Assembly (NCBI RefSeq): GCF_004014715.1
Contig: NZ_CP034835.1
Span: 3,906,001-3,970,000 of the forward strand
Length of the DNA stretch: 64,000 nucleotides
Reading direction: 5' to 3'
Origin: Pseudoalteromonas sp. R3
GTDB lineage: Bacteria > Pseudomonadota > Gammaproteobacteria > Enterobacterales > Alteromonadaceae
Positions within the stretch are counted from its first letter, which is position 1, and each line of letters begins with the position of its first letter. This document shows, piece by piece, positions 38,218 through 64,000 of the stretch. The notes beneath the pieces are model-generated. The model saw only the letters and a program-made list of their open reading frames with translations. It was not told the origin of the DNA and searched no databases. Made by a program: the position numbers and the translations under genes.

Positions 38218-38226
38218 AAGGCCAAG

Positions 38227-38894
38227 TTAATCCTGTATAGAAATAGCAAAGTTCAACACTTCTTCATCAATAGGTAATGAGAAAACTAAGTGTTCGTAAG
38301 AAAACTTCATAGGCCTATTATAGCTATCTTTGGATTCCAACGATTGCAAAACTGTTAAATTTAACACATCAGCCCCAACCTATAGGTTTTCAATATTTTT
38401 TCAAAATTTTCCATGCCAAAGTTTGGAAATGCAAACTGGGCTATTTGTTTACCTTCATCTACTTCTTTACTTACATAGTGAATTGTATGACCTAGTAGAC
38501 TGATATCTTGTGAAACCAGAAACTCTTTGTTAAACAGCCCTTTGAACGCAGGTAAAAGTGAGTGATGCGTATTAATAAACCTTACACTTTGTGTTAGAAA
38601 ACTTTCTGGCAATATAAATTTGAAACCAGCGAGAAAAACATAATCAGGCTTATCAACATCAATCTGCTTTTGTAATGCATCTAAAGCGGAAGCCTTACTT
38701 CCCGATTTGTAAGTTTTAATACTTTTTGGTGCATTGCTTGCTTTAAAATAGCTTAATAACTTGTTTTCGCTCTCAGCGAGCAAACAAGTTATTTCACAGT
38801 TTTTCAACACATTAGCATTGATAGCTTTTATTATAGCAATAGCGTCGCCTCCGCCATCCCCACAAAGCAGCATTAGCTTCAGTTTTTTTGTCAT
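38227..38894 (-). pseudogene. GART-fold sugar N-formyltransferase, frameshifted
   Basis: Frame 1 gives 177 residues, then a second frame continues GADVLNLTVLQSLESKDS and ends at 38227. Adding one base (most simply a fifth G, opposite CCCC at 38373-38376) gives about 222 residues, the same as the formyltransferase in the other locus (223). The N10-formyltetrahydrofolate-dependent catalytic set is visible: Asn and His in FINTHHSLLPAFKG and Asp in YVSKEVDEGKQIAQF. In sugar loci these enzymes formylate an amino sugar such as Qui4N, Fuc4N or bacillosamine. Its position after LegC suggests the 4-amine is the target. Confidence 0.75.
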
Positions 38895-38895
38895 A

Positions 38896-39864: not shown

Positions 39865-39876
39865 AAATACACCTGT

Positions 39877-41022: not shown

Positions 41023-41034
41023 TCTGATTTCCCA

Positions 41035-42225
41035 CTACATTTTACTATCAAGGTACTTGCCTGTCTCTTTGTGGCCAAAGTCAGGGATCATGGCAAAGAA
41101 CAGCTCTACAATTTGCTCTTTACTCCAAGCCTGATCAGCTTTCATTTTCGCAACTTGTGTTTCAAAAAGGCTTAATAGCTCTTGATCATAATCAGGCTCA
41201 TTTTTAATGATGCCCAGACTATCAAAACGAGTCATATTTAGCTCTTCTTTATCAGTAAAAAACTCTTCAAAATCTTTTTCACCCGTCGTATCACTTTTAG
41301 TGAATAGACATGGCCACTTACCTTTTGCAGGTAGCGTTTTAGCAAGCTCTCTTGCTTCTTCCTCACTTTCGCACAAGTGTGCTTCATACCCTCTTTGCTC
41401 TAGGTACTTAACAGCAATATCTGCAAAAGTAATAAGGTGTAACGATTCACTTAATTTTGGAAAGAAAATATCGCGATTATCGCCAAAAATACACGACATC
41501 AAGCATAATTCACCCGACTCCTGCGGTATGACAAAGTACCTTTTGATATCGCTAGGTGCAACAATCGGCTGCTGCTTCTCGATGCGCTGGTTAAAGCCAT
41601 GCAAAAGAGAACCATCAGAAAACGCCACATTTGCAAACCGGGCAGTAGAAATATCAATTTCTTTGCTTCGGCGCATAAGGAACATCTCCATAATACGCTT
41701 TGACGCTCCCATCATATTGACAGGATTAGCGGCTTTGTCTGTCGAGACACAGAAATACTTTTTAACTCCCGAATCAATTGATTGTTGGATTGTTTTATCC
41801 GTGTTAAATATATTAACGTCAATCATTCGCATGAGAGTAAACGGATCTTTTTCACTTCGTACATGCTTTAACGCAGACAAATTCAAGACAAAGTCATATT
41901 GTCCATCAGCTTTAATAAAAGCATCGTACTCGGTCGAGCCTATATCAAGCGCAAATGTTTGAAAATCGCCATTAATGTAGCCGAATGAACTACGGATATC
42001 GCGAACTAATTCAACCATGTTATTTTCGCTGATATCTACAACATGTAACTTAGCTGGATTACGCTTAAAGATCTCTTTTGTGACAGCCTGGCCAATGGAA
42101 CCTGCTCCACCTAAGACCAAAAAACGGGATTCAGTTACAATGCGCTGTAACTCTGCTTCATATTTTGTAATATCTTGTTTAAAAAGCTCTTTTTCCCGGC
42201 CGATGAGAGATAAAATATTCTTCAC
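41035..42225 (-). CDS. LegB-type NDP-GlcNAc 4,6-dehydratase
   Basis: An SDR of 396 residues with a nucleotide site FLVLGGAGSIGQAV near residue 35, LNLSALKHVRSEKDP, and VSTDKAANPVNMMGASK in the catalytic region, again with Met instead of Tyr as in the WbpM/PglF branch. Length and C-terminal extension match the LegB group, soluble dehydratases that make a 4-keto-6-deoxy sugar. GTG at 42225 immediately follows the wecC stop. With LegC it should make a bacillosamine-type or related sugar. Whether the donor is UDP- or GDP-linked is not visible. Confidence 0.85.
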   Translation of the reverse strand: MKNILSLIGREKELFKQDITKYEAELQRIVTESRFLVLGGAGSIGQAVTKEIFKRNPAKLHVVDISENNMVELVRDIRSSFGYINGDFQTFALDIGSTEYDAFIKADGQYDFVLNLSALKHVRSEKDPFTLMRMIDVNIFNTDKTIQQSIDSGVKKYFCVSTDKAANPVNMMGASKRIMEMFLMRRSKEIDISTARFANVAFSDGSLLHGFNQRIEKQQPIVAPSDIKRYFVIPQESGELCLMSCIFGDNRDIFFPKLSESLHLITFADIAVKYLEQRGYEAHLCESEEEARELAKTLPAKGKWPCLFTKSDTTGEKDFEEFFTDKEELNMTRFDSLGIIKNEPDYDQELLSLFETQVAKMKADQAWSKEQIVELFFAMIPDFGHKETGKYLDSKM

Positions 42226-43488
42226 TTACCAAATCCCTTTTGTATCAACTAAATATTTCGCTTTGAATTTTGAGGCTTTAAACTGACTGTGATCGACTAA
42301 AACTACATGAATGTCTGCATTTTCTTGCGCATTTTCCAGACTAGTTAGCTCGACTGTAGACGATATATTTTCTAGGCTAGATATGTTTGGCTCTACAGCC
42401 CAAACGCTACCAGCGTGCATATCAGATAATGCTTTGGTTATATTTAACGCAGGGCTTTCTCGCAGGTCATCTATGTCTGGCTTAAACGCAAGACCATAAC
42501 AAGCAACAACGATATCTTGAACCGTTTTAGTCGGGTTATCTTGCAAAAAGTTGGCGATTTCAAGCTTAACTTTATCCACCACCCAGCTAGGTTTTCCATC
42601 ATTGACTTGACGGGCAGTATGTATAATTTTTGCTTGTGTAGGTGTTTTACTAACAATAAACCATGGATCTACTGCTATACAATGGCCTCCAACACCAGGC
42701 CCTGGTTGTAAAATGTTAATACGTGGGTGACGGTTAGCCAGTGATATAAGCTCCCATACGTCGATATCAAGCTTATCGCAAATGATAGATAACTCATTAG
42801 CAAAAGCAATTTGCACATCACGACATGAGTTTTCAGTTAACTTTGCCATTTCTGCTGTACGAGCATTAGTGATCACACATTCGCCTTGTACAAATGTTTT
42901 GTAAAGCTCTACAGCTCGCGCAGAACATTTAGCGGTCATACCACCAATAACACGATCGTTCTCAACTAGCTCACGAACTACATGCCCAGGTAATACACGT
43001 TCAGGGCAATGCGCCACATTTACGTCAGCATTATCACCTGCGATTTGTGGGAAAGTTAAATCAGGGCGTACTGCTGCTAACCACTCAGCCATTTGCTCTG
43101 TAGCGCCCACAGGAGAGGTTGACTCAAGAATGACCAAGTCACCTTTTTTCAAAACAGGTGCAATAGCTTTACTTGCCGCCTCAATATAAGACAAATCAGG
43201 CTCAGGTATCTCTGAGTCATTATTTTTAAAGGGGGTAGGTACAGCTATTAAAAATGCATCCGCAGGCTCTGGAATAGTTGTTGCTTTTAAATACCCTTCT
43301 GTAACAGCTGCATGAACTATCATATCCAGCTCTGGTTCAACAATATGAATCTCACCGCGATTGATAGTATCAACAGCATGCTGATTTACATCAATTCCGA
43401 TTACTTTTTTCTTACGTGATGCAAACATTGCTGCTGTTGGTAGGCCTATGTAACCGAGGCCAATTACTGAAATCGTTTCAAAAGACAT
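42226..43488 (-). CDS. wecC: UDP-N-acetylmannosamine dehydrogenase, capsule-locus copy
   Basis: The 420-residue enzyme oxidises UDP-ManNAc to UDP-ManNAcA with two NAD. It has the N-terminal Rossmann motif [26 protein letters not shown], the central helix with [17 protein letters not shown], and the catalytic Cys in [12 protein letters not shown]. It is highly similar to the WecC in the common-antigen-like locus, including the N terminus and the [14 protein letters not shown] block. Its partner wecB is directly upstream in the operon, so ManNAcA is expected in the capsule as well. Confidence 0.95.
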   Translation of the reverse strand: MSFETISVIGLGYIGLPTAAMFASRKKKVIGIDVNQHAVDTINRGEIHIVEPELDMIVHAAVTEGYLKATTIPEPADAFLIAVPTPFKNNDSEIPEPDLSYIEAASKAIAPVLKKGDLVILESTSPVGATEQMAEWLAAVRPDLTFPQIAGDNADVNVAHCPERVLPGHVVRELVENDRVIGGMTAKCSARAVELYKTFVQGECVITNARTAEMAKLTENSCRDVQIAFANELSIICDKLDIDVWELISLANRHPRINILQPGPGVGGHCIAVDPWFIVSKTPTQAKIIHTARQVNDGKPSWVVDKVKLEIANFLQDNPTKTVQDIVVACYGLAFKPDIDDLRESPALNITKALSDMHAGSVWAVEPNISSLENISSTVELTSLENAQENADIHVVLVDHSQFKASKFKAKYLVDTKGIW

Positions 43489-43547
43489 GATAACCCTTTT
43501 TATAAATCCTTAAGCTGTAAGCAAAAATTAAATTCTTTAAATGTTCG

Positions 43548-44663
43548 TTATTTAGCTAAAATATCACAAATTCGTGAGCATGCATTACCATCACCATAAG
43601 GGTTATGCGCTCGGCTCATCTCCGCATAGCTACTTTCATTTGTAAGCAATTCAGTAAGAGATGAAGTAATTAAGTCTACATTTGTACCTACGAGCTTAAC
43701 AGTTCCTGCTTCAACTGCCTCCGGTCGTTCAGTTGTATCACGCATAACTAAAACAGGCTTACCAAGGCTTGGCGCTTCTTCTTGTATACCACCTGAATCA
43801 GTTAGAATAATATGCGCACGATTCATTAAGTAAACAAATGGTAGGTATTGTTGAGGTTCAATTAAATGGACGTTGTCAACATCAGCTAGAATTCGATTAA
43901 CTGGCTCTTGAACATTGGGATTTAAATGAACTGGATACAATATTTGTGTTTCTGGATGTTTTTTAGCTGTTTGTGCTAATGCTTCACAAATTCGTTCAAA
44001 GCCGCCACCAAAGCTTTCACGACGATGACCCGTTACTAGAATGAGTTTCTTTGAATCATCTAAAAACGGGAACTGTGCAGCAAGTGTCGAAGACAAACCG
44101 GTATCTATTTCTATTTGCGACTTAACCATTAATAGCGCATCAATCACGGTATTGCCTGTCACAAAAACGTTTTTCGCATCGTAGTTTTCAGCCAGTAGAT
44201 TGTGTTTTGATGTTTCTGTTGGTGCAAAATGGAACTTTGTTAAAGCACCAGTTAACTTTCGATTAGCTTCTTCAGGCCAAGGAGAGTAGATATTACCTGT
44301 ACGCAAACCTGCTTCAACATGGCCAACCGCAATTTGTTCATAGTAAGCTGCAAGGCTTGCAGCAAAAGTAGTGGCTGTGTCGCCATGCACCAACACCACA
44401 TCAGGTTTGAATTCCTTTAAAACAGGTGTTAATTCTAACAAAATCCGACTTGTAACTTCAGGAAGAGTTTGACCCGCTTTCATCAAATTCAAATCGTAAT
44501 CAGGCGTAATCTTAAAAAGCTCTAGTACTTGATCAAGCATTTCCCTGTGCTGAGCTGTTACACAAACTTTAGCCTCAAAACGCTCATCATTTGCAAGCGC
44601 ATGTACGAGCGGTGCCATTTTGATTGCTTCTGGCCTTGTACCGAATACTGTAAGAACTTTCAC
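43548..44663 (-). CDS. wecB: UDP-N-acetylglucosamine 2-epimerase, capsule-locus copy
   Basis: Converts UDP-GlcNAc to UDP-ManNAc. The 371-residue protein has the GT-B-like epimerase pattern: [49 protein letters not shown], the allosteric and active-site strand [19 protein letters not shown], and [14 protein letters not shown]. It is a close paralogue of the copy in the other locus. Between it and wzc lies a cluster of REP-like repeats, which may set mRNA stability between the two operon parts. Confidence 0.95.
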
Positions 44664-51281: not shown

Positions 51282-52001
51282 TTATTTCTGTTTAAACAGC
51301 ATAGCGATAAACTTAAGCAATTTGATTTGTCTTCCAATTCTGCTTGGTTGGGCCAGTAAACGGTAAAGCCATTCTAAACCGAGATTACAAAAGATACGTG
51401 GGGCTCTTTTGACATGCCCTGTAAAAACATCGTAGGTTCCGCCGACTCCCATCATAACAGCCTTAACTCCATTGGCCTTACATTTAAACATGAACTGCTC
51501 TTGCTTCGGCGATCCTAAGGCCACTGATACGAATTCAGCTTTGGAAGCTTTTATTTTCTCAATAAGCGCATCTTCATTATCGAAAAAGCCATCCTCGTGT
51601 CCTACAATATTCGCCCCATAAAGCTGAGCTGCTTTCTCTGCTGTGGCTTGGTTTACTTCTTTGGAGGCACCCACAAAAAAAATGGGCAGGCCAGTCTTAC
51701 CAGCTTCCGCAACCAATGCTTCCCAAAGCTCGCACCCCGGCACACGCTTAATCGATTCACCGTGCTTTAACTTTACAGCTTTCACTATGCCCATTCCATC
51801 AGCATAAAGGACATCGCTTTTCTTTAAAATATCGCCGATTTCTTTTGATTCCTGGCCTTTAAGTACCTTTTCAGGGTTCAGAGCTGTCAATATAATGCCT
51901 TTGTCTTTTATATTCATACCCATGATATGACTAACAGCGTTCTTAATGTCTGGAAAGCAGTGGACTTGCAACCCAAAAACTTCCAGTAACTTAATGTTCA
52001 T
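51282..52001 (-). CDS. wecG: UDP-ManNAcA transferase WecG (WecG/TagA/CpsF family)
   Basis: WecG adds ManNAcA to undecaprenyl-diphosphate-GlcNAc to make lipid II of common antigen. The 239-residue protein has the GT26 signatures: ILTALNPEKVL, YADGMGIV, RVPGCELWE, FFVGASKEV, LGSPKQEQFM and a long VGGTYDVFTGHVKRAPRIF block, ending with the hydrophobic, basic C-terminal region needed for membrane association. ATG 52001 overlaps the polymerase gene by 11 bases; a Met six codons upstream is possible. It is last in the locus, as in E. coli. Confidence 0.93.
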   Translation of the reverse strand: MNIKLLEVFGLQVHCFPDIKNAVSHIMGMNIKDKGIILTALNPEKVLKGQESKEIGDILKKSDVLYADGMGIVKAVKLKHGESIKRVPGCELWEALVAEAGKTGLPIFFVGASKEVNQATAEKAAQLYGANIVGHEDGFFDNEDALIEKIKASKAEFVSVALGSPKQEQFMFKCKANGVKAVMMGVGGTYDVFTGHVKRAPRIFCNLGLEWLYRLLAQPSRIGRQIKLLKFIAMLFKQK

Positions 52002-53424
52002 TTGATTTAGAAACCCCAATTAAAAAGTATAGCACTAGAGCATAGCAACATATTCTAAGAACAGAGAAACTCAAGTTGAACGAGTTCTCTTGTAGAAAAG
52101 AAGCGGACAAAATTGACGCACTTGTCGCAAACAAAAAGTAACCGATTCTAGTTTTGCTTAACACCGCTTTTTTTAAGATAGTGAGACAAAACATAACCAG
52201 AAAAAACAGACCAAGGATCCCGGTATTATACATAACGAGTCCAACGAAACTTTCAGCTCCCTGATTTACCCAGCCGCCCATATTACCACCCGTACCCAGG
52301 TCATGACCTATGAAGAAGTTCAACCAAGAGTCAAAGGTGATAAACGGTAGGACTAAACCCTGCACATGAATTGCAGAGCTATCTGTCACGCCACTTTGCA
52401 ATGCTCGAAGGGAAATTATTATAACAGCACAACCAACAGCGAACAAAGACAACCTATATTTAGTAGTCCCTGAAACTTTTAGCCTCAAGCAGATATTAAT
52501 TGCCAAAAAGCATGCCAATAGAAAGAAAAAGGCCTTACTTAATGTTGCTGCGGCAAGCAAGATACATATAACTAAACCAGACAGCTTCAGAGCTGGATTT
52601 TTAACAAAATAATAAATATACGAAAAAAACAAGAAAAACGAGTAAGCGGCTAATATCGGATCAGCAAACACCCCTGGAAAACGCATAAAAAACATGCCAA
52701 AAAGAATCGTTCTGTTATTCCCTTCTGCCCCTCCCCGCCCCAACGTTTTTCCAATGTCCAGAAAGACTTCATTCAGACTAAAATCGAATGCTATCTGAAG
52801 TGACATAAAGAATAGCGAAATAAATAAGACGACGGCAATTATCAGCTTAAAGAGTGGGCTTCCATGATACCTCACTTGAGCGCAGTGCTTTGCTTTGAGT
52901 AAGTAGCTACAGCACCATGAAATCAAAAGAAACTGTAGTAAGAAAGGGAAGTAGACATTAACAAAGTAAGCCACTGAGACAAATGCATCTGTTTTCAGTC
53001 CCTTTACCAGGGAAGCCAAAAGAATCAAAACAAAAAAGAAAAAGTACTTATAGCTAGTATCTGTGCTCGATAATTTAAAGTTAGAACACGCTAAAATAGC
53101 AATAATAATTGGAAAAACCAAAGCAGCTTTAATTATTGCCCAATAACTGCTTGACATGTAAAAGTCCAAGTTCAAAACATAGCTTAAATACAACCAATAA
53201 AAAACCGACAATAAGCTAGTAACTGTCAACGTGAGAATAGCAGCTGCTCTGGAGTAAAAAGAAATTCCTGACATGAAGATCGCAAACGCCAACAATGCCA
53301 GAGGTTCACTTGCAATAAGAAGCACCGAAATACAAGCCACTAATAGCATTAAAGAAGCACGCAATACAGCGCTGTATTGGCAAGGTATCCGCAATAGGTG
53401 CGTCACGTAATTATCCTGATTCAT
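51991..53424 (-). CDS. Wzy-type polymerase of the common-antigen-like locus
   Basis: A 477-residue integral membrane protein with about 12 hydrophobic segments and a periplasmic loop containing FIGHDLGTGGNMGGWVNQGAE, the sort of Gly-rich loop seen in Wzy/O-antigen ligase proteins. By position (between Wzx and WecG) it is the polymerase of the locus, the slot held by wzyE in E. coli. It is not obviously similar to WzyE, so a different repeat unit is possible. The start at 53424 gives an ATGA overlap with wzx; the long upstream extension lies inside wzx and is rejected. Confidence 0.7.
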   Translation of the reverse strand: MNQDNYVTHLLRIPCQYSAVLRASLMLLVACISVLLIASEPLALLAFAIFMSGISFYSRAAAILTLTVTSLLSVFYWLYLSYVLNLDFYMSSSYWAIIKAALVFPIIIAILACSNFKLSSTDTSYKYFFFFVLILLASLVKGLKTDAFVSVAYFVNVYFPFLLQFLLISWCCSYLLKAKHCAQVRYHGSPLFKLIIAVVLFISLFFMSLQIAFDFSLNEVFLDIGKTLGRGGAEGNNRTILFGMFFMRFPGVFADPILAAYSFFLFFSYIYYFVKNPALKLSGLVICILLAAATLSKAFFFLLACFLAINICLRLKVSGTTKYRLSLFAVGCAVIIISLRALQSGVTDSSAIHVQGLVLPFITFDSWLNFFIGHDLGTGGNMGGWVNQGAESFVGLVMYNTGILGLFFLVMFCLTILKKAVLSKTRIGYFLFATSASILSASFLQENSFNLSFSVLRICCYALVLYFLIGVSKSNEH

Positions 53425-54824
53425 TTCGGCTTTCTCAAAATAACGAGATATTGATTGGCTCGTACTCGGACACGAGATAGTGCGAAGAGTAACAAGCAGA
53501 CTGCAGATAAACCAACCCATAGTTTAGCTTTTTCTTGCAATAAAGCGTCAATTGAAGCGCATACCAACAAAGCGCTGATCACAAAGTAATCTCTCCTCTG
53601 ATAAACCGGCTTCCAGACTTTTCTTGAAAACTCACTCCTAAGCACATAAAACACCATAAAGGCACTCATGGTGGCTATCGCCGCGCCTGGAGCTCCTAAG
53701 TGAGGTATTAGCAGTATATTAAAACCGAGTGCAACAATTAGGCTTAGAATCGCTGATGCGACTGAATATTTTGTTTTCTTTGTTATTCCTATTCCGACCT
53801 TTGTACATTCTGAAAGCATATACATCAGAGGAGCAACAATACAACTTGAAAGTAAATATTGAACACTTACATACGAATCCGGAAGGAAGTAACTAACTAG
53901 GGGCTTGAATAACAACACTAAAGAGAAAATAATGACCACAGCATCTCTTACTAGTTTAACAAAGGTATTAAATACACTTGTGTCCCCTCCATATGAATTA
54001 ACCTTGTAAACATACGGGGTCCATATAGTGGAAAAAACTTGCTGAAAAATCATTGCGACACCAGCAAGGTTTACTGCTAAGGCGTAGTTTGCTAATTCTC
54101 CTAAACCCGAATACTCTTTGAGTAACAACCTATCAATTGAGACTAAGCCCCAATACGCCAAACTGGAGATAACAAGTGGTGATGCATAAGAGAGCACTTT
54201 TTGAACAAGCATTTTGTCAAAGTTACTCAAATTGATAGCAGAAATTGAAGGAATAACTTTCCATGCAACAAAGGAAAACGTAATAACATATGATGCCGTA
54301 AAGCCAAGCAAGATATACTTAAAATCATTAAAATCGTATAGACTCGCGGCAACAACACTCACTAAAAATAAAAATCGTGGTAAAACCTGAACAACCGAGT
54401 ATAACAGCGCACGCTCACTCATTCTGGATTCAATTTGCAAAAATCTTATTAGGTAATTAGTGAGCAATATGATGCAAACAAGTATATAAGCAAAATACCA
54501 TTCAAAGTTAAACCATAACTCAATAAACTCGCTGGAATAGAAACCAACTAATGCACTAGCGACCAGCAGCAGAATAAGCCCGGGGAGGCTAAATGAAACT
54601 AAAAATGCTGACCTATCTTTGGCATCATGGTACTCACGAACATAAGCCTGATCCAATCCAAGTGTAAAAAACAGCAGAGAAAAGGAAACTAACACTTGTA
54701 TAAGTGCGTATCTGCCTATATCTTCACTAGAGAACAGCCAAGACATAACAGGTAAGGTAATTAACCCCACTAAAGCAGTTAAAACTGGTCCAAGTGAGAA
54801 ATGTAAAATTTTCTTAAAACTCAT
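53421..54824 (-). CDS. Wzx-type flippase of the common-antigen-like locus
   Basis: A 467-residue MOP-superfamily flippase with about 12 membrane helices, beginning LGPVLTALVGLITLPVMSWL and including IASLAYWGLVSIDRLLLKEY-type charged breaks. It lies in the wzxE position, after wecE. It probably flips the undecaprenyl-linked trisaccharide-like repeat. It differs clearly from the capsule Wzx, as expected if each flippase is specific for its own unit. The gene starts about 270 bases after wecE, so an internal promoter or processing site may exist there. Confidence 0.88.
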   Translation of the reverse strand: MSFKKILHFSLGPVLTALVGLITLPVMSWLFSSEDIGRYALIQVLVSFSLLFFTLGLDQAYVREYHDAKDRSAFLVSFSLPGLILLLVASALVGFYSSEFIELWFNFEWYFAYILVCIILLTNYLIRFLQIESRMSERALLYSVVQVLPRFLFLVSVVAASLYDFNDFKYILLGFTASYVITFSFVAWKVIPSISAINLSNFDKMLVQKVLSYASPLVISSLAYWGLVSIDRLLLKEYSGLGELANYALAVNLAGVAMIFQQVFSTIWTPYVYKVNSYGGDTSVFNTFVKLVRDAVVIIFSLVLLFKPLVSYFLPDSYVSVQYLLSSCIVAPLMYMLSECTKVGIGITKKTKYSVASAILSLIVALGFNILLIPHLGAPGAAIATMSAFMVFYVLRSEFSRKVWKPVYQRRDYFVISALLVCASIDALLQEKAKLWVGLSAVCLLLFALSRVRVRANQYLVILRKPK

Positions 54825-54883
54825 TATAACTCAAACTAATATACCAATATTAAGGTCCAGCAAATAAAAGCTCTGATAGGCGC

Positions 54884-55039
54884 TTAACCTATCCATAAAT
54901 ATTTTCTTGTGGAGACAGCTTTCATCCGGGGTTGCCGAATATAAAAATCTGCTGTATCCGTTTGCACTTTTGGATAGCCCCGCATCTTACCGTGGTACTT
55001 TCCGTCCAAGAAAGCATGCCTCCCATCAATAAGCTTCAT
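54884..55039 (-). other. 51-codon frame of unknown meaning in the wzx-wecE gap
   Basis: An ATG-started frame of 51 codons reads ...DGKYHGKMRGYPKVQTDTAD..., strongly charged and without a recognised domain. It has no clear ribosome binding site. The composition resembles the chance translations of intergenic repeats more than a gene, but the frame is intact. It separates wecE from wzx. Confidence 0.25.
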
Positions 55040-55095
55040 TGAGTAAATAAATCAACATGAAGCTTACCGAAAGGTCTTAAGCAAAAGACTTTTTG

Positions 55096-56244
55096 TTAGG
55101 AGCCCTGAAAAAACCTCTTTATTTCATTACATACATGCTCAATGTCTTGCCCATCCAAGCCGTACCAAAGAGGTAACCTAAGCAGCCTATTACTCTCTAG
55201 AGTTGTAAACTCGTCTTGTCCACTGAATCTTGAAAACACTTTACCTGCTGTCGAAGAATGAAGTGGCACATAGTGAAAAGCCGTTTGAATATTAGATTCG
55301 CGTAAAAACTGAATTAGCTGTGTCCGAGTTTCAAGAGAATCTAGCTTTACGTAAAACATATGGGCATTATGCTCGCACTCTTCAGGAATTGATGGTAGTT
55401 CCACATGCCCTTGTCTCTCGACCTCGGCCAGACCGTCATAATATCGTTTCCAACTATTCAAACGATCTTGGTTAATTAACTGAGCATTACCGCCTTCCAT
55501 CTGTGCCAATAGATAAGCAGCGCTAATATCATTCATCAATAAGCTGCTGCCTATGTCAACCCAAGAATATTTATCAACCTGTCCTCGTAAAAATTGACTT
55601 CGGTCGGTGCCTTTTTCACGAATGATCTCTGCTCGCTCAATCAAAGTTTCATCGTTGATCAATAACAAACCACCTTCTCCTGCACTCGTATAATTCTTGG
55701 TTTCATGAAACGAGAATGCACCTAAGTGGCCAATAGTTCCTAAAGGCTTCCCTTTGTAAGTACTCATCACCCCTTGTGCGGCATCTTCAACCACGAACAG
55801 CTTATACTTTTGCGCGATACTCATAATTGTATCCATCTCACAAGCAACGCCAGCATAGTGAACAGGAACTATTACTTTGGTCTTTTCTGTAATGGCAGCT
55901 TCGATCTTAGATTCATCAATATTCATCGTGTCTTTTCGAACATCAACAAACACGATTTTAGCGCCTCGCAGAACAAAAGCATTTGCTGTTGACACAAAGG
56001 TATAGCTGGGCATGATCACTTCATCGCCCTCTTTTATATCAAGCAATATCGCACTCAGTTCTAACGCGTGAGTACAAGAAGGTGTTAGCAGTGTTTTCTT
56101 TACAGAAAATGCATTTTCAAACCATTGTTGACACTTTTTCGTGTATGGTCCATCACCGCATAACTTATTATTTCCTAGAGCTTGTTTGATGTAGTCAATT
56201 TCATTGCCAACAACAGGCGGGTTATTAAACGGAATATTATTCAT
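55096..56244 (-). CDS. wecE: dTDP-4-amino-4,6-dideoxygalactose transaminase WecE (RffA)
   Basis: WecE transfers an amino group from glutamate to dTDP-4-keto-6-deoxyglucose to give dTDP-Fuc4N. The 382-residue PLP enzyme has the WecE-type sequence: FNNPPVVGNEIDYI, the TPSCTHALELSAIL site, MPSYTFVSTANAFVLRGA, EDAAQGVMSTYKGKPLG, and the PLP lysine in FSFHETKNYTSAGEGG, which is characteristic of RffA rather than of Qui4N or perosamine transaminases. It follows the formyltransferase gene with a 35-base gap. It supplies the Fuc4N that WecF should use after N-acylation. Confidence 0.95.
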   Translation of the reverse strand: MNNIPFNNPPVVGNEIDYIKQALGNNKLCGDGPYTKKCQQWFENAFSVKKTLLTPSCTHALELSAILLDIKEGDEVIMPSYTFVSTANAFVLRGAKIVFVDVRKDTMNIDESKIEAAITEKTKVIVPVHYAGVACEMDTIMSIAQKYKLFVVEDAAQGVMSTYKGKPLGTIGHLGAFSFHETKNYTSAGEGGLLLINDETLIERAEIIREKGTDRSQFLRGQVDKYSWVDIGSSLLMNDISAAYLLAQMEGGNAQLINQDRLNSWKRYYDGLAEVERQGHVELPSIPEECEHNAHMFYVKLDSLETRTQLIQFLRESNIQTAFHYVPLHSSTAGKVFSRFSGQDEFTTLESNRLLRLPLWYGLDGQDIEHVCNEIKRFFQGS

Positions 56245-56279
56245 GATTGGACCTTTACTTATTGAGGCAAAATTGAGAT

Positions 56280-56951
56280 TTATCTATATGGTGTAAGAAC
56301 TTTATCAGAAGGGTTCTTTTCATTGTGTTCGCGTATTTTTTGAAATAGCTCTTTATCTTGTTTTAAGAAATACCGCCCGGAGCCAGTTTGTGGCCTACCT
56401 TTATCTCCGAGAAATACCATTTCTAATGATTTAGGCAACTCATTTGCTATTAGCTCACACATTCTGTAGTGCAAAATCTTTGGTGTTTCTTCAGGGAAGA
56501 GCTTAAGCTTATTTTGTGCCAAGATATTGCCAGCATCGACTTGTTCACTAACATAATGAATCGTAATACCATAATACTCTTCAATATTTGCCCAATAATG
56601 CATATAAGCTCTTGATCCCTTATAGTCAGGCAAGTAGGAACCGTGACAATTTATTAACTTTCCATCTAGCGCATTTATTTCTCTAGACTTTATTATGTAA
56701 GGCCACCCTAGAAGCACCAAGATATAATCATCACAATCAGCAGTGAAAGATTTAACTTCCGATGGGCAAATTGCTTTTCCAGTAACATGGTATTCGATAT
56801 CCAAGTTATTTGCCGCGGCGACAGCGCAGCCTTCGGAGCACGAAGAGAAAAACATCAGTTGGTAATCACTTTTCAAGCTTTGATGGGTTAGCTCAATAAT
56901 AAGCTGTGCTTTAAGGGAGTTACCTTCACCGACGAATATAACCTTATTCAT
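56280..56951 (-). CDS. GART-fold sugar N-formyltransferase beside wecE
   Basis: A 223-residue enzyme of the N10-formyltetrahydrofolate-dependent transferase fold. The catalytic Asn, His and Asp are visible in LINCHGSYLPDYKG and IHYVSEQVDAGNILAQ. It lies between an ATP-grasp gene and wecE, where E. coli has the acetyltransferase wecD. The simplest role is formylation of dTDP-Fuc4N, giving Fuc4NFo, a sugar known from some O-antigens. If the ATP-grasp enzyme first adds an amino acid to the amine, formylation of that amino acid is an alternative. The full-length start at 56951 is supported by the N-terminal VIFVGEGNSLKAQLI strand. Confidence 0.82.
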   Translation of the reverse strand: MNKVIFVGEGNSLKAQLIIELTHQSLKSDYQLMFFSSCSEGCAVAAANNLDIEYHVTGKAICPSEVKSFTADCDDYILVLLGWPYIIKSREINALDGKLINCHGSYLPDYKGSRAYMHYWANIEEYYGITIHYVSEQVDAGNILAQNKLKLFPEETPKILHYRMCELIANELPKSLEMVFLGDKGRPQTGSGRYFLKQDKELFQKIREHNEKNPSDKVLTPYR

Positions 56952-56956
56952 ACAAA

Positions 56957-58144
56957 CTAGCCTCGAATAACGATATTAATATCAGAAAGTAAGCTATCGA
57001 GCTCTGATCCAGCATCCGCAATAGAGGAACCACTAACAACAATATGACCTATTCTGTCGGGACCTACCGCGAACTTGCGCACACTATCAGAAACATCGTA
57101 GTCGAGTTGAAATGCCTCAACGTTTTCCTTTGAGCTAATATCAGGCATATCTATACTTTCAATAACGCCAGCCTTATCACTAATTAATAGTCTAGATACA
57201 TTTGCTTTCCCTGAACCTGAGAAGCTCATGTCTATATCTCTACCTAAACACAAATTAATGATCAGCTCGTACATATCCACATTGTAAAAGGAAGCTATGT
57301 TCTCTGGTATACACGTCGCCCCCATTCTTCCACCAATTTCAATGATATAAGCCTGATCACCAACAACCATAATATCAGAATTAGAAACCGTGCATGTGAT
57401 ATTCAAAGCTTCAACGGCCTTCAATAGCTCAGCTTCAATGTTCTTTTTCACAATATCACTGCATTGCGATGGAATGGCATGACCGATTGGCACGTCGGTT
57501 TTCCCACTGAAGTTTATTCTATCGTGAATAATGACTTTCGCATTGCCACTGCGATCGATGATGACTTCAGCCCCCACCTCTTCGCCTTCGAGAAACTCTT
57601 CAACAATAATTTCATTGCTTTTACTGATTTCTGTGGCCAATTCATAGGCACTCACCGCCTCATCGACGCTGTATACTTTAGTAATACCCCGACTGCCAGA
57701 CAGGTTTGGCGCTTTGACCATAACTGGGTATGTGAAGGACTCTAAGGCTTGATGCATGTCAGCTTTTGATTCTATAACAGCAAACTTGGCTGTGTTGACG
57801 TTAGCATCCAGTAGCTTTCGCTTCATACTTACTTTGTTCGTACACGCCTTGGCATTTTCATAGCCAATACCACTCAACCCCAAGTGCTCTGCAACGTAGC
57901 CAATGGTAGGCACGCCCACATCGCTCCCCGTCGTAACTATACCTGATATACCATGTTGCTTTGCATGCTTTAATACCTCGACCTCATCCTTAATATCACA
58001 AAACACACACTCGTCCGCGATCAGTAGCCCTGGATAGTTACCATTAGGAGATACAACTATGGTAGTAAAGTTTAACTCTTTTGCCTTTTTGATAAGAGGA
58101 ACCTGATAAACACCAGCTCCTAAGATCATTATTTTTTCACTCAT
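56957..58144 (-). CDS. ATP-grasp carboxylate-amine ligase-like protein
   Basis: A 395-residue protein with an N-terminal pre-ATP-grasp Rossmann part (MILGAGVYQVPLIKKA), then the ATP-grasp fold: YPVMVKAPNLSGSRGITKV, IIVEEFLEGEEVGAEVII and the metal-binding EIGGRMGATCIPE. Such enzymes, relatives of PurK, PurT and carbamoyl-phosphate synthase, join a carboxylate to an amine with ATP. In sugar loci they are thought to acylate amino sugars with amino acids or hydroxy acids. Here it probably acts on Fuc4N or on its acyl group. Overlaps wecF by 8 bases and lies five bases from the formyltransferase, so the three are coupled. Confidence 0.75.
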   Translation of the reverse strand: MSEKIMILGAGVYQVPLIKKAKELNFTTIVVSPNGNYPGLLIADECVFCDIKDEVEVLKHAKQHGISGIVTTGSDVGVPTIGYVAEHLGLSGIGYENAKACTNKVSMKRKLLDANVNTAKFAVIESKADMHQALESFTYPVMVKAPNLSGSRGITKVYSVDEAVSAYELATEISKSNEIIVEEFLEGEEVGAEVIIDRSGNAKVIIHDRINFSGKTDVPIGHAIPSQCSDIVKKNIEAELLKAVEALNITCTVSNSDIMVVGDQAYIIEIGGRMGATCIPENIASFYNVDMYELIINLCLGRDIDMSFSGSGKANVSRLLISDKAGVIESIDMPDISSKENVEAFQLDYDVSDSVRKFAVGPDRIGHIVVSGSSIADAGSELDSLLSDINIVIRG

Positions 58145-59177
58145 CAGAAAATAAACCGTTCAAATTTTTAAGTAACTGTGCTTGGCTATATTCGGTTCTA
58201 ACAATAGCGACATTTTCTTCAACATTGGGCAGTACTGGGCTGCTTAAAACTTTTTCTTTAGAGTATATTTTAATTCCAAGTTGAGTTAAGTGGTTGTAGC
58301 TTGAAGTGCCTTCGCGCATGCATACGACCTTACCCATAGCAAGTAGCTGTATGATATTGCCCATCGCTTGCTGTCTGTTCATATCAAATATAGCAACATC
58401 TATCGAAGCTAGAAGTGCATTGTATTCGTCCAGGGGCAACATTTTTCTTAATGCGGTAAACCTGTCACCAAATAACTTTCCCCCCAAAGACTCCACCTCA
58501 TCTCCATAGGCAGAATCTCCGTAATTGAGAGGACAGATAACTTCAAAGTCAAACGTTACTTGCTCTTTGATGCGACGCAACACCTCAGCATGGTTATTAA
58601 CGGCGGTAGCCGAATTTCCAACTAAGATTCTAACTTTTGCATTGCTTGACGAAGGATTTGTTGTGACAGCAATTGAATCAGGCTTAACTGTAACACTTGG
58701 ATAGGTAAACCCCTTATAATGCCGGGCTCGAGTTTGATACCACTGTCTCGCTAGTGCAAATTCTCCGTCCATAGACGTGGCTATGGTCGAGATGTTTTTA
58801 ATTAGCCTGCTACGAAAATACTCATAACATCTTTTCGCAATAGAGAGTTTCCTCTCGTTATAAGCATACAGGTCATTTCCCCACAGTATCCAGACAGACT
58901 TTCTAAGCACGCCTGTCATAAGTGAAAACAGCACAACCAGAATATGCACAAATAGACCATGAAAATAAACTCTATCGGCCCTTTGAGCATGTTTTACTGT
59001 TGCGATGAGTTGTTTTAGGTTTCTCGAGCTGAGTTGAGTAACATTCGCTGGGTAGTTTTTATCCTTACTCCCCTCAAAAACCAAGAAATGATGCTCTCCT
59101 TGCGGAAAAGCATCATTAATCGTTTCAATTACTGCTGGTACAAACTTTTCGCTCTTCATTAGATGAAGGTGTTTCAT
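58137..59177 (-). CDS. wecF: TDP-Fuc4NAc:lipid II transferase WecF (GT56)
   Basis: WecF adds Fuc4NAc to lipid II in common-antigen synthesis. The 346-residue protein has the GT56 landmarks: [73 protein letters not shown] and [16 protein letters not shown]. In E. coli wecF lies further down, after wzxE; here it sits between rffH and the ATP-grasp gene. The ATGA overlap with rffH indicates coupling. As no wecD is seen, the enzyme's true donor may be an N-formyl or other N-acyl Fuc4N, which is inferred. Confidence 0.9.
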
Positions 59178-60049
59178 TTATTTGATATTTCCTTCAAATA
59201 ATCTCCATAAGAGTTCTTACCATACTTTTCTGCGATGCCCTGTATCTGTTCTTTGCTCAGCCACTTATTGTAAAATGCAATCTCCTCGAGACAGGCAATC
59301 TTAAACCCCTGGCGTTTTTCGATTGTTTCAACAAACTGAGCCGCCTCTAGCAGGCTGTCATGCGTACCAGTATCGAGCCATGCAAACCCTCGCCCTAACA
59401 GCTCAACATTGAGTTCACCTTTCTCTAGGTACATTTGGTTGAGCGTCGTTATCTCAAGCTCACCTCGATCAGAAGGCTTAACTTTTTTAGCCATCTCTAC
59501 AACATTGGAGTCATAGAAATACAGTCCGGTGACCGCGAAGTTTGACTTCGCTACACTCGGTTTCTCTTCGATTGACACCACATTACGATCTTTATCAAAT
59601 TCGACAACACCAAAACGGTTAGGATCCTTCACTTGATATCCAAACACTGTAGCGCCTGTCTGGTGGGACATCGCTGCATGCAACTTTGGAGTAAAACCTT
59701 GGCCATAAAAAATGTTGTCGCCAAGCACTAGGCATACAGGGTCATTGCCAATAAACTCTTCCCCGATGATAAAAGCCTGTGCAAGCCCTTCTGGTTTAGG
59801 TTGCACGGCATAGCTCAGTTCTATTCCGAAACAACTACCGTCACCTAAAAGACGCTTAAAGCTTTCTAGATCTTCTGGTGTGGTAATGATCAAGACTTCT
59901 TTGATCCCAGCAAGCATCAGCACAGAGAGTGGATAATAAATCATTGGCTTGTCATAAACAGGCAACAGCTGCTTTGAAATACCGTGAGTAATCGGAAACA
60001 GACGAGAGCCTGTTCCGCCAGCCAATATTATACCTTTACGCTTAATCAT
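59174..60049 (-). CDS. rffH: Glucose-1-phosphate thymidylyltransferase RffH (RmlA)
   Basis: Makes dTDP-glucose from glucose-1-phosphate and dTTP. The 291-residue protein has the pyrophosphorylase motif [49 protein letters not shown], the EKP loop (VSIEEKPSV) and [20 protein letters not shown]. Length and position after rffG match E. coli. It also could support dTDP-rhamnose, but no rmlC or rmlD is seen, so dTDP-Fuc4N is the likely end product. Overlaps rffG and wecF by a few bases. Confidence 0.96.
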
Positions 60050-61110
60050 TTATCTTCAACACCTTTGCTTTGTTGATAACTACCGTCAAGCACATGCTGC
60101 CACCAGGTTGTGTTGTTTAAATACCACTCTACTGTTTTACGAATGCCTGATTCGAATGTCTCGAGAGGGGCCCACCCTAGCTCTTTCTCAATCTTACTCG
60201 CATCTATTGCATAGCGTACATCGTGACCGGGGCGATCCTTAACAAATGTAATAAGATCTTCGTACCTTGCCACATTTTCCGGCTTTTTGGGAGCCAGCTC
60301 CTCAAGTAGCTGACAGATCACTTTAACAACATCTATGTTCTTTCTTTCGTTATGACCGCCAATATTGTAAGTTTCGCCGTCTATACCATTGAGAAGAACC
60401 GTATACAATGCTCTTGCATGATCTTCAACATAGAGCCAGTCACGCACTTGAGTACCATCGCCATAGACAGGTAACGGTTTACCATGAAGTGCATTTAAAA
60501 TGACATGTGGGATCAACTTTTCCGGGAAATGATATGGTCCGTAATTGTTACTACAGTTGGTCAGCAAAATTGGTAAACCATAAGTTCTTCCCCAAGCTCT
60601 AACTAGGTGGTCTGAGCCAGCTTTACTCGCAGAATAAGGACTGCTAGGTGCATAAGGAGTCGACTCTGTAAACAAGTCCTCTGTCCCTTCTAAATCACCA
60701 TAAACTTCATCGGTAGAGACGTGATGAAATTTAAACCTTGATTTTTCTTGTGCTGGTAAAGTGTTCCAGTATTGCCTGGCAACTTCCAGTAAGGTGAAAG
60801 TACCGACTAGATTGGTCTGTATAAACTCCGCTGAATCGTCGATTGAACGATCTACATGAGACTCAGCAGCCAGGTGCATGATAGCATCTGGTTTAGTCTC
60901 CTCGAAGACACGAGTAAGCGCCTGTCTGTCACAAATATCAACTTGCTCAAACTGATAGCGTTCATTTGTATCGACAGAAGCCAGTGACTCAAGGTTTCCA
61001 GCATAGGTTAACTTGTCAATATTAACAACGGAGTCATTTGTGTTTTCGATGATATGTCTAATCACCGCTGAACCGATGAATCCGGCTCCACCTGTCACAA
61101 TAATCTTCAC
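60046..61110 (-). CDS. rffG: dTDP-glucose 4,6-dehydratase RffG (RmlB)
   Basis: Converts dTDP-glucose to dTDP-4-keto-6-deoxyglucose. The SDR has [16 protein letters not shown] at residue 5 on, the [16 protein letters not shown] loop with the catalytic residues, [10 protein letters not shown] and the [11 protein letters not shown] motif holding Tyr and Lys. GTG at 61110 makes a GTGA overlap with the wecC stop and gives [11 protein letters not shown], matching E. coli RffG; a TTG two codons earlier is less likely. The gene order wecB-wecC-rffG-rffH is the standard common-antigen order. Confidence 0.95.
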
Positions 61111-62375
61111 AGCCAAACCCCTTTCGTATCGATTACAACCTTACTCTTGTCTATTACAGTAGACTTAAACTCTTTATGATCAACTAACAATAGGTGAATG
61201 TCGCATGTAGATACAGCGTCCTCCAGCTCTACTAGTTCTACTTCTCCCAATTGCGTAGGGACAGACTCGACATTAGGTTCTACGACTAGAATTTTTCCAG
61301 CATGAACTTCTCTCACCTTTTGTACAATCTGCATTGCTGGACTTTCTCTCAAGTCATCTATGTCAGGTTTGAATGCCAGTCCGTAACACCCTATAGTCAC
61401 AGATTTTGCATTACGTTCGGGATGTCGTTGTAAAAACTCACCGACAGCTTGGTTTACTTTGTCGACTACCCACAAAGGCTTTGAATCATTTACCTTCCTA
61501 GCCGTGTGTATTAGCTTAGCAGCATCCGGTGATTTCGAAATAATAAACCAAGGATCAACAGCAATACAGTGCCCACCAACACCTGGACCTGGCTGTAAAA
61601 TGTTTACTCGCGGATGACGGTTAGCAAGCTTGATTAGCTCCCAAACATCGACATCTATTTCATCACAGATTAAAGACAGTTCATTTGCAAAGGCAATTTG
61701 CACATCACGGCTACTGTTTTCTGTCAATTTGGCCATTTCTGCAGTACGACTATCTGTGATGATGCATTCTCCCTCGACAAACGTTTTGTAGAGCTCGATT
61801 GCCGCGGCAGAGCTTTCAGGAGACATACCACCAATCACTCTGTCGTTTTCTACGAGTTCTCGCACAACGTGGCCTGGCAAAACACGCTCTGGACAATATG
61901 CAATTTTGATATCAGCATCGCTACCTGAGCTCTGTGGAAAAGTAAGCTCTGGCCTCAACTCAGCAAGCCAAGCCGCCAATTGCTCCGTTGCACCAACTGG
62001 AGAAGTTGACTCTAAAACTACAAGGTTACCTTTTTCAAGTACCGGCGCGATAGACTTAGCTGCTGCTTCAATATACCCAAGATCAGGCTCCGGTATAACT
62101 GAGCCACCGGCTTTGAAAGGAGTAGGGACAGCTATCAGAAAAGCGTCTGCAGGTTCAGCTGTGGTTGACGCACGGAAATACCCTTGCGTCACGGATGCAT
62201 GAACCAAAATATCTAACTCAGGTTCAACAATATGGATCTCACCACGATTAATGGTATCTACCGCCTTCTGGTTGATATCCACTCCGATTACTTTTTTTCT
62301 TTTTGATGCGAACATTGCGGCTGTGGGCAACCCAATATAGCCTAATCCGATGACAGAAACAGTTTCAAACGACAT
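61107..62375 (-). CDS. wecC: UDP-N-acetylmannosamine dehydrogenase WecC
   Basis: Makes UDP-ManNAcA, the donor for WecG. The 422-residue protein has [55 protein letters not shown] with the catalytic Cys, and [12 protein letters not shown] near the C terminus. It is a very close paralogue of the copy in the capsule cluster about 19 kb away, with one noticeable difference being Ser where that copy has Cys in the TENS(S/C)RD motif. It follows wecB by 13 bases. Confidence 0.96.
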
Positions 62376-62388
62376 ACTGGCTCCTAAC

Positions 62389-63522
62389 TTAGATCTTCTT
62401 TAAAGTTGCTAACACATCACAAATTTGCTTGCTCGCTGTGCCATCACCATAAGGGTTATGTGCTAAGCTCATATCTTTGTATGCGTTAGTATCATTGAGT
62501 AACTTCGAAACTGCTCCGGTAATTCTATCAAAATCGGTACCTACCAACTCAACAGTGCCAGCTTCAACAGCTTCAGGTCTCTCAGTCGTATCTCTCATCA
62601 CCAGAACTGGTTTACCCAGGCTTGGCGCCTCCTCTTGAATTCCTCCTGAATCCGTTAATATCAAATACGCCTCATTCATTAGGTAAACGAAAGGCAAGTA
62701 TTCCTGAGGTTCAATCAAGTAAACATTGTCTAGACCATTTAAAGTTCTATTGACTGGTTCCTGTACACTCGGGTTCAAATGCACCGGATAGACGATTTGA
62801 ACATCTGGATACTCAGTCGCGATAGCGGCTAGAGCTCTACAAATACTTTCGAAGCCCGAACCAAAGTTCTCACGCCGATGGCCTGTAACAAGAATCAACT
62901 TTTTTGTTTTATCTAAAAATGGGAACTTGCCGCCAAGCTCTTCTTGAAGTGAAAGATCCTTTTCGATTTTTCGCTTTACATCTAACAATGTATCAATAAC
63001 TGTATTTCCAGTTACATAGACACAATCTGCTGGATAGTTTTCATCTAAAAGGTTCTTTTTTGATTTGCTAGTAGGAGCAAAGTGCAAACGAGTAAGACAG
63101 CCAGTAAGACGGCGATTCGCTTCTTCAGGCCATGGCGAATAAATATCACCAGTCCGTAAACCCGCCTCAATATGTGCCACCGGGATTTGCTCATAATATG
63201 CAGCTAAACTAGCCGAAAAAGTCGTTGCCGTATCTCCGTGCACAGCAACAATATCAGGACGAAACTCTTTTAAAACAGGTGTAAGTTCAAGGAGAATTCT
63301 AGATGTCAGTTCTGGCAAGGTTTGGCCTGCCTGCATCAAGTTTAAATCAAAATCAGGGGTAATCTGGAATAAACCCAACACTTGATCAAGCATTTCTCTA
63401 TGCTGTGCAGTGACGCATACTTTAGACTCAAACCGAGGATCCTGCTCTAACGAGCTTACAAGAGGAGCCATTTTTATTGCTTCGGGCCGAGTTCCAAAAA
63501 TAGTTAAAATTTTAATTGCCAT
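62389..63522 (-). CDS. wecB: UDP-N-acetylglucosamine 2-epimerase WecB
   Basis: Makes UDP-ManNAc from UDP-GlcNAc. The 377-residue protein has [72 protein letters not shown] and [14 protein letters not shown]. It is the first gene after wecA in the common-antigen-like locus; no wzzE-type gene lies between them. It is the paralogue of the wecB copy in the capsule cluster. Confidence 0.96.
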
Positions 63523-63550
63523 AATACCTTGATAAAAAGTCGGTGTTTAT

Positions 63551-64000
63551 TCACTTACGTCTCAGCCAGCTTAATATGCGCCAAACGTGCGCTAGAGCAT
63601 AATTGTAGACTAAAAACATACCTATGAAAATGGAAAACATTATCCACTCAGGTGTATTCCTAAGCTCTAAAAAACCACCTAAAAATGCAATAAATGCAGC
63701 TGCCAGGGAAATTATAATTAAAGCTCTACGTCTGCTATAACCAGCCCTTTCAAATATATGATGTAAGTGATCTCTATCTGCTTTGAAAGGCGAAGTACCT
63801 TTTTTAATTCTCCGATACATTATTGCTACCATATCCATTAATGGAATAGCGATAATATAAAGCGCTGTTACTGGTCTAAAAGACTTAACATCTTGTTCGA
63901 TACCAATCACTAGCAACCAAATTATTGTAAATCCAATCAGCATGCTACCAGCGTCGCCCATGAAAACTTTTTTCATTGATTTGCTAGGCCAGCGAAGGTT
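63551..64000 (-). CDS. wecA: UDP-GlcNAc:undecaprenyl-phosphate transferase WecA, 3' part only
   Basis: The frame is open from the window edge, so 149 C-terminal residues are seen. They have the MraY/WecA-family landmarks: KVFMGDAGSMLIGF (the Asp-containing third motif), the RIKKGTSPFKADRDHLHHIFERAG loop with the HIF-type histidines needed for the UDP-GlcNAc class, and three membrane helices after it. WecA makes lipid I (undecaprenyl-PP-GlcNAc), the first step of common antigen and of many O-antigens. It lies first in this locus, as in E. coli. The start is outside the window. Confidence 0.92.
   Translation of the reverse strand, partial: NLRWPSKSMKKVFMGDAGSMLIGFTIIWLLVIGIEQDVKSFRPVTALYIIAIPLMDMVAIMYRRIKKGTSPFKADRDHLHHIFERAGYSRRRALIIISLAAAFIAFLGGFLELRNTPEWIMFSIFIGMFLVYNYALAHVWRILSWLRRK

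Follow-up and report, generated by a model that had tools for sequence, protein, structure and literature searches.

A gene cluster of Pseudoalteromonas sp. R3 encodes the enzymes for dTDP-linked 4-amino-4,6-dideoxygalactose (dTDP-Fuc4N), known from enterobacterial common antigen (ECA), and carries, in place of the acetyltransferase gene wecD, genes for an ATP-grasp ligase (56957..58144, minus strand) and a short formyltransferase (56280..56951, minus strand). We analyzed this cluster in a stretch of 64,000 nucleotides (here, the window; bases 3906001-3970000 of contig C2, NZ_CP034835.1) from a 5.82-Mb genome in two contigs that is rated 100% complete. We consider it fairly likely that WecE forms dTDP-Fuc4N, that the ATP-grasp enzyme adds an amino acid to its amine, and that the formyltransferase formylates that amino acid, with the resulting sugar entering a Wzx/Wzy polysaccharide built from an ECA-like trisaccharide.

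Two predicted acylation genes in place of wecD

Along the minus strand, the cluster reads wzz-wecA-wecB-wecC-rffG-rffH-wecF-ATP-grasp-formyltransferase-wecE-wzx-wzy-wecG, and an open reading frame check recovered every gene from wecA to wecG as an open frame on that strand at the coordinates given in the text. Intergenic gaps from wecB to wecE range from -10 to +35 bp, and a 271-bp gap precedes wzx. The ATP-grasp gene overlaps wecF by 8 bp and lies 5 bp from the formyltransferase gene, which is separated from wecE by 35 bp. An identical 12-gene set in the same order recurs in Pseudoalteromonas sp. XMcav2-N (L034) and Pseudoalteromonas rubra S2676 (L035), with proteins 89 to 100% identical to those of the window, and therefore the cluster is not a chance array. 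The ligases of these two strains are 99% and 92% identical to that of the window, respectively, and the formyltransferases 96% and 90%; the closest named relatives of both proteins (ligase, 92%; formyltransferase, 90%) are from P. rubra.

The earlier note on this DNA had described two extra, tightly spaced genes between wecF and wecE and no wecD in the window, and both observations stand. It had also proposed a genome-wide search for wecD, which yielded only two weak places with model TIGR02382 (32.1 and 25.5 bits; cut-off, 195.1) and at best 30.8 bits with NF008212 (cut-off, 219). The three carrier genomes, among which the completeness rating applies to the window genome only, reach no more than 32.4 bits with the latter model. 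NF008212 is the better test, because the TIGR02382 cut-off alone would miss the WecD proteins of two relatives with a wecD-wecE pair (G092 and G120; 170 and 156 bits); these serve as positive controls for NF008212, scoring 247 and 239 bits, and the gap to 32 bits remains. One of 14 further named control genomes also exceeded the NF008212 cut-off.

The ATP-grasp protein is a carboxylate-amine ligase by family, matching PF07478 (42.7 bits; cut-off, 24) and the L-amino-acid-ligase C-terminal domain LAL_C2 (PF18603, 34.6 bits; cut-off, 29.4), and we predict that it aminoacylates the 4-amine of dTDP-Fuc4N. It matches PDB entry 4dim, deposited as a phosphoribosylglycinamide synthetase, over its full length (205 bits) and the alanine-anticapsin ligase BacD locally (250 residues, 55 bits). 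Across 30 aligned rows, residues K104, K144, D257, and R273 never vary, and 29 rows have E269; we take the roles of these residues in Mg and ATP binding from the BacD alignment and established knowledge. A search of 394 genomes of the order at an E value of 1e-50, with at most four candidates scored per genome, recovered the ligase from the window genome alone, and a protein search lists relatives at 41 to 44% identity in strains of Vibrio splendidus, Vibrio campbellii, Aliiglaciecola, and Pseudoalteromonas shioyasakiensis.

The formyltransferase is a PurN-type protein of 223 amino acids, predicted to formylate the amine contributed by the attached amino acid. It matches PF00551 (73.2 bits; cut-off, 26.1), and the Pfam scan detected no C-terminal PF02911 domain. 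The triad N101/H103/D139, positioned through alignments to a PurN and to PseJ and from what is established for PurN, is kept in all 27 aligned sequences. In both extra enzymes, the predicted catalytic residues are retained. The protein falls short of the PurN model TIGR00639 (71 bits; cut-off, 150), and a separate PurN-like open frame lies elsewhere in the genome (C2:1743593). Its best PDB match is a PurN (57.5 bits), followed by PseJ (50 bits), the formylation domain of linear gramicidin synthetase (42 bits), and ArnA (39 bits).

Among species representatives, the formyltransferase family is rare, although it does turn up in individual strains. We collected 43 relatives at E values of ≤1e-15, which are 162 to 237 amino acids long and include a protein from a Vibrio breoganii strain (45% identity; P0123, protein search). 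Scoring at most seven candidates per genome, we found the family only in the window genome among 394 species representatives of the order (1e-30) and, with the Oceanobacillus luteolus relative as the query, only in that query's own genome among 398 of its class (1e-25). No plasmid matched at 1e-15, viral contigs contained no relative, and phage records gave six matches at 24 to 34% identity, of which four carry a phosphoribosylglycinamide formyltransferase annotation. Within the taxonomic family, 101 of 196 genomes match, and every place apart from the window's own gene scores ≤57.7 bits, against 512 bits for that gene; we read these matches as putative PurN and similar enzymes.

Ligase and formyltransferase neighborhoods in other genomes

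A locus of O. luteolus (L036/L113) encodes in a row a PglF-like dehydratase, a nucleotidyltransferase, a DegT aminotransferase, a formyltransferase (41% identity), an ATP-grasp protein (31% identity), and a PglC-like sugar transferase. Because the two genes adjoin each other both there and in Pseudoalteromonas, their co-occurrence is best explained by a ligase that adds an amino acid and a formyltransferase that caps the amine so created.

The ligase family is also repeatedly associated with genes for sugar aminotransferases. A search with ligase profile A2 matched 8 of 299 Bacillota genomes at E values of ≤1e-70, and we read the surroundings of all eight. A DegT aminotransferase, called by BLAST against our in-house reference set, lies within 5 kb of the ligase in seven of them (six of seven when counted independently, since the Oceanobacillus ligase was part of the profile); three of these seven aminotransferases are 45 to 53% identical to WecE. 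One genome contains a further ligase gene roughly 10 kb from its aminotransferase gene. In the eighth genome (L112, on a contig of 7,976 bases), an aminotransferase of class III takes the place of DegT. In the stretches read around the ligase, seven of the eight genomes have no match to the formyltransferase set, Oceanobacillus being the only one with such a gene. The ligase therefore appears to need no formyltransferase, and the latter is best read as an added second step.

Among plasmids, 64 records matched the ligase, and we opened five loci. The ligase is within 5 kb of an aminotransferase gene in three, from Enterococcus hirae, Parabacteroides distasonis, and Aureibacter tunicatorum, whose ligases are also the three most similar of the five (29 to 34% identity). 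In the haloarchaeon Natrarchaeobius (L037, 3001-8528), a relative of the formyltransferase (37% identity over part of its length) and two ATP-grasp genes occur within a few kilobases, with no aminotransferase among the eight proteins scanned. A second formyltransferase relative is present on the same contig. Finally, metagenome contigs of equal size (7,860 and 6,469 bases) appear among both the formyltransferase and the ligase matches, which suggests that relatives of the two enzymes share these two contigs.

Proposed pathway

Descriptions of ECA give acetyl as the N-acyl substituent of Fuc4N. The amines of the other two sugars, N-acetylglucosamine (GlcNAc) and N-acetylmannosaminuronic acid (ManNAcA), are already acetylated in their precursors, and therefore the amine of Fuc4N would be the sole free amine of the predicted repeat. 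Synthesis would begin with the transfer of GlcNAc-phosphate to undecaprenyl phosphate by WecA; WecB and WecC would supply UDP-ManNAcA, from which the WecG homologue would transfer ManNAcA; and RffH, RffG, and WecE would produce dTDP-Fuc4N. In place of acetylation by WecD, the ATP-grasp enzyme would convert an amino acid to its acyl phosphate and couple the activated carboxyl group to the 4-amine of dTDP-Fuc4N. The PurN-type enzyme would then formylate the amine so introduced, with N10-formyl-tetrahydrofolate as the donor. The completed N-(formyl-aminoacyl)-Fuc4N would be transferred by the diverged WecF, and export and polymerization of the unit would fall to the Wzx and Wzy encoded in the cluster. 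We infer from the genes the substrates, which of the two steps comes first, an amino acid as the acid attached, and the structure of the polymer; alanine in particular would be a guess by analogy with known polysaccharides.

More broadly, the cluster may make an ECA-type trisaccharide polymer with N-formyl-aminoacyl Fuc4N by means of a portable cassette of aminotransferase, formyltransferase, and ATP-grasp ligase, in which the short formyltransferase would be a new kind of enzyme acting on an amino acid bound to a nucleotide sugar; we regard this wider proposal as evenly balanced between true and false. If true, the cassette replaces a dedicated N-acetyltransferase and is distributed across Gram-negative bacteria, a Gram-positive bacterium, and perhaps haloarchaea.

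Several observations weigh against the amino acid-then-formyl pathway. An acetyltransferase-like gene stands beside the aminotransferase in two of the Bacillota loci (L107, hexapeptide; L109, GNAT), and the Aureibacter plasmid locus likewise carries a hexapeptide acyltransferase gene, so the ligase is not always a replacement for an acetyltransferase. The stretches of the Brachyspira hyodysenteriae and Providencia plasmids, whose ligases are 25 to 26% identical to that of the window, have no annotated DegT gene. The PDB relatives of the formyltransferase include enzymes that formylate sugars directly, and by sequence alone its acceptor would be undecided. A haloarchaeon with 5-N-formyl-legionaminic acid has, according to the available part of PMC6137143, a predicted formyltransferase for the sugar itself, which makes direct action on a sugar possible for the haloarchaeal relative as well. 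The WecF protein, finally, is strongly diverged (25% identity to that of Escherichia coli), and its donor and acceptor are predicted only.

Alternative routes to the N-acyl group

The main alternative, which we consider unlikely, is that the formyltransferase acts directly on dTDP-Fuc4N to give N-formyl-Fuc4N (Fuc4NFo) and that the ATP-grasp enzyme does something else, such as amidating or acylating another residue. Enzymes that N-formylate nucleotide-linked 4-amino sugars are well known, and one direct sugar formyltransferase, PseJ, is among the nearest PDB entries. A relative in the same family (G017) has a two-domain formyltransferase gene between wecE and rffH, which is the wecD position (L072, 11732-12613), suggesting that plain N-formyl-Fuc4N is made in another bacterium of the family. 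The window enzyme differs from that of L072 in being short, as are the members of its family generally, and in having no PF02911 match. In addition, the association of the ligase family with aminotransferase genes favors an amine acceptor for the ligase, and the adjacency of the formyltransferase and ligase genes here and in Oceanobacillus speaks against separate roles. A ligase by itself would be enough to acylate Fuc4N, and its family does occur where no formyltransferase was seen; from the example of L072, a formyltransferase by itself would be enough too. The earlier note had left direct formylation and attachment of an acid followed by formylation side by side; the second is better supported, because the ligase adjoins aminotransferase genes without a formyltransferase in seven of the eight Bacillota loci.

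Other loci with a WecF-like transferase indicate how variable this step may be. The GT56 family PF07429 occurs in 27 of 196 genomes of the taxonomic family, and, leaving aside the window genome, we read the surroundings of this gene in 20 of the remaining 26 (about 20 kb each, apart from one short contig with less). In eight of these 20 loci, of which selected genes were scanned, one protein shares at least 50% identity with WecE and also exceeds the TIGR02379 cut-off. wecD adjoins wecE in two of the eight (L084 and L085), and a third is L072 with its two-domain formyltransferase. Genes of the WbqC family (PF08889, 256 to 274 bits) occur in three (L082, 10479-11198; L083, 8317-9033; L087, 8856-9614), with no wecD seen among the genes scanned there, and the WbqC proteins may belong to a further N-acylation route. 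In L082, a hexapeptide transferase encoded two genes away from wecE could serve as an acyltransferase too. A distant ATP-grasp gene (26% identity) lies 3.6 kb from wecE in L081, and the three proteins scanned in L076 include no N-acylation candidate. From this gene content, we infer that the N-acyl group on Fuc4N likely varies within the family. Together with the window cluster, these loci suggest that the dTDP-Fuc4N pathway of marine Alteromonadaceae-type bacteria pairs with WecD, with a two-domain formyltransferase, or with an ATP-grasp ligase and a formyltransferase.

Another GT56 locus from the same genus (L086, 7470-9385) has a gene for a pyridoxal phosphate-dependent (PALP) enzyme that overlaps a PylC-like ATP-grasp gene; possibly this pair makes an unusual amino acid and ligates it onto an amino sugar.

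A second alternative keeps the ligase on Fuc4N and changes its substrate: it would attach a hydroxy acid or some other acid while the formyltransferase targets a different amine, or a free amino acid would be formylated first and then ligated. We judge this improbable. Hydroxy and dicarboxylic N-acyl groups are known in bacterial polysaccharides, for example the malyl group of P. rubra ATCC 29570 in the available parts of PMC10609480 and PMC3210612. The ligase sequence is itself silent on which acid binds, and its LAL_C2 domain and similarity to BacD point to amino acids. If the ligase added a hydroxy acid, moreover, the predicted trisaccharide would offer the formyltransferase no free amine, given the acetylated amines of GlcNAc and ManNAcA.

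It is very improbable that the cluster is a true ECA locus whose Fuc4N receives the ordinary acetyl group from an unrelated acetyltransferase encoded elsewhere, despite the 64 to 74% identity of WecB, WecC, RffG, RffH, and WecE to their E. coli counterparts and weak acetyltransferase-like matches to the wecD models in the genome (29 to 32 bits), since no wecD exceeds a cut-off, no WzyE was found in the genome, wzx, wzy, and wzz have no BLAST match to ECA proteins, and two genes within the operon, kept in three genomes, would be otherwise unexplained.

Sugar and assembly genes of the cluster

The genes for the sugar precursors are of ECA type throughout, with the sets for both UDP-ManNAcA and dTDP-Fuc4N present. 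The 3' part of wecA (63551..64000, minus strand; PF00953, 47% identity to E. coli WecA) is cut by the window edge and is complete in the genome (347 amino acids). It is followed, all on the same strand, by the UDP-GlcNAc 2-epimerase gene wecB (62389..63522; PF02350, 67% identity), the UDP-ManNAc dehydrogenase gene wecC (61107..62375; PF03721/PF00984/PF03720, 64% identity), the dTDP-glucose 4,6-dehydratase gene rffG/rmlB (60046..61116; TIGR01181 522 bits, 74% identity), and the glucose-1-phosphate thymidylyltransferase gene rffH/rmlA (59174..60049; TIGR01207 499 bits, 72% identity). WecE, the dTDP-4-keto-6-deoxyglucose transaminase that yields dTDP-Fuc4N (55096..56244, minus strand), scores 662 bits against TIGR02379 (cut-off, 434.85) and is 67% identical to its E. 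coli counterpart; each of the three carrier genomes has one copy above this cut-off.

The transferases are more distant from those of ECA. The predicted acylated-Fuc4N transferase, a WecF-like GT56 glycosyltransferase (58137..59177, minus strand), matches PF07429 (99.7 bits; cut-off, 25) and stays under the ECA equivalog cut-offs (NF002756, 302 of 457 bits; NF052570, 99.5 of 525). The WecG-type ManNAcA transferase (51282..52019, minus strand; PF03808, 45% identity to E. coli WecG) passes TIGR00696 (192 bits; cut-off, 69) and scores 259 bits against NF002980, under its cut-off of 323.

The assembly genes lie outside the ECA families. At an E value of 1e-3, wzx, wzy, and wzz have no BLAST match to E. 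coli WzxE, WzyE, and WzzE. The flippase gene wzx (53421..54824, minus strand) has no NCBIfam match at 1e-5, and wzx and wzz match only the general Pfam families PF01943 (56 bits for wzx) and PF02706. The wzy-like polymerase gene (51991..53520, minus strand), named from its position and strongly hydrophobic product, matches nothing in NCBIfam at 1e-5 or in Pfam at 1e-3. A search for WzyE (PF06899) gave no match in any of the three carrier genomes, including the window genome, with a positive E. coli control. Export genes also adjoin the cluster: a polysaccharide export protein with SLBB domains is encoded 5' of wzz, and a UDP-sugar dehydrogenase gene and wza-wzb-wzc are found 3' of wecG. The gene directly after wecG is dehydrogenase-like in the window and in P. 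rubra S2676 and wecB-like in XMcav2-N.

Calling this an ECA locus is not supported, because its polymerase, flippase, and chain-length genes are outside the ECA families, no WzyE was found in the genome, and export genes adjoin; we read it as an O-antigen or capsule locus that uses ECA sugars. The GlcNAc-ManNAcA-Fuc4N trisaccharide is well predicted, and its assembly machinery would be of the O-antigen or capsule type. The earlier note had taken the polymer for an ECA variant, a label that is only half right; what survives of its interpretation is the missing wecD, the strong WecE match, and two genes where N-acylation belongs. Similarly, all the genes it listed for an ECA-like order are present, in an order that departs from that of E. 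coli (wecF 5' of wecE, wzz 5' of wecA).

The O-antigen of the P. rubra type strain was considered as the product of this cluster and rejected: the available text of PMC10609480 and PMC3210612 gives GalNAmA, a keto sugar, and GlcNAc3N(malyl)A as its residues, and no Fuc4N or ManNAcA.

Other polysaccharide genes in the window

Past wza-wzb-wzc, a second polysaccharide locus (36080-44663, minus strand) contains a second wecB and wecC, a LegB/FnlA-like dehydratase gene, a LegC aminotransferase gene (535 bits; cut-off, 420), an unassigned gene for a 322-amino-acid protein, and a nucleotidyltransferase gene. It also has a second short formyltransferase gene (177 amino acids; PF00551, 68 bits) and a GT56-like gene slightly under the cut-off (24.4 of 25 bits). 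A further 4-amino sugar with an N-formyl group may be the product of this locus; Halorubrum is known to have a formylated legionaminic acid, from the part of PMC6137143 available. Farther along (26406-31879, minus strand) are genes for an asparagine-synthase-like amidotransferase, a fused zinc-dehydrogenase/GFO-IDH-MocA oxidoreductase (710 amino acids), and a heparinase II/III-like protein.

Comparison with known systems

Formylated amino acids have precedents on surface polysaccharides. The N-formyl-L-alanyl group of the Vibrio anguillarum O2 antigen is carried by a 3-amino uronic acid derivative. The presence of that group in the O2 O-antigen, reported in the portion of PMC10059132 available, is the chemistry that we propose for the window, on other sugars. 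Within the genus, Pseudoalteromonas polysaccharides contain 3- or 4-(N-acetyl-D-alanyl)amino sugars (PMC3210612, available in part), so that a sugar amine bears an acylated amino acid as in our proposal; these glycans differ in having acetyl rather than formyl and the gluco-configured Qui3N and Qui4N (3-amino-3,6-dideoxyglucose and 4-amino-4,6-dideoxyglucose) rather than Fuc4N. We found no ECA with a non-acetyl Fuc4N and no report of this gene pair in the open-licence literature, including the accessible part of PMC7439462, with most subscription journals lying outside this search; PMC2824669 concerns eukaryotic enzymes and was set aside. Such an absence is weak evidence of novelty, and similar acyl groups are already known on other polysaccharides. 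If confirmed, the pathway would provide candidate genes for formyl-aminoacyl sugars, for which the available literature text names the structure and no enzymes, and a handle for predicting them from sequence.

Among enzymes, the sugar N-formyltransferases PseJ, ArnA, and WlaRD and the linear gramicidin synthetase domain are detectably similar to the window formyltransferase (about 32 to 50 bits), which forms a short family of its own; in the PurN and PseJ alignments, the Asn, His, and Asp of its triad line up. The O. luteolus locus shares with the window the side-by-side arrangement of aminotransferase, formyltransferase, and ATP-grasp genes and differs in its Gram-positive host and in its dehydratase and sugar transferase, which are of the PglF and PglC kind. 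The closest system overall is the ECA cluster of E. coli K-12 (wecA-wzzE-wecBC-rffGH-wecD-wecE-wzxE-wecF-wzyE-wecG), which resembles the window in its genes for UDP-ManNAcA and dTDP-Fuc4N, its start with WecA, its WecG-type and GT56 transferases, and a nearly identical gene order. The window cluster differs from it in placing wecF upstream of wecE and wzz upstream of wecA, in its diverged WecF and non-ECA wzx, wzy, and wzz, and above all in having an ATP-grasp ligase and a formyltransferase where E. coli has wecD.

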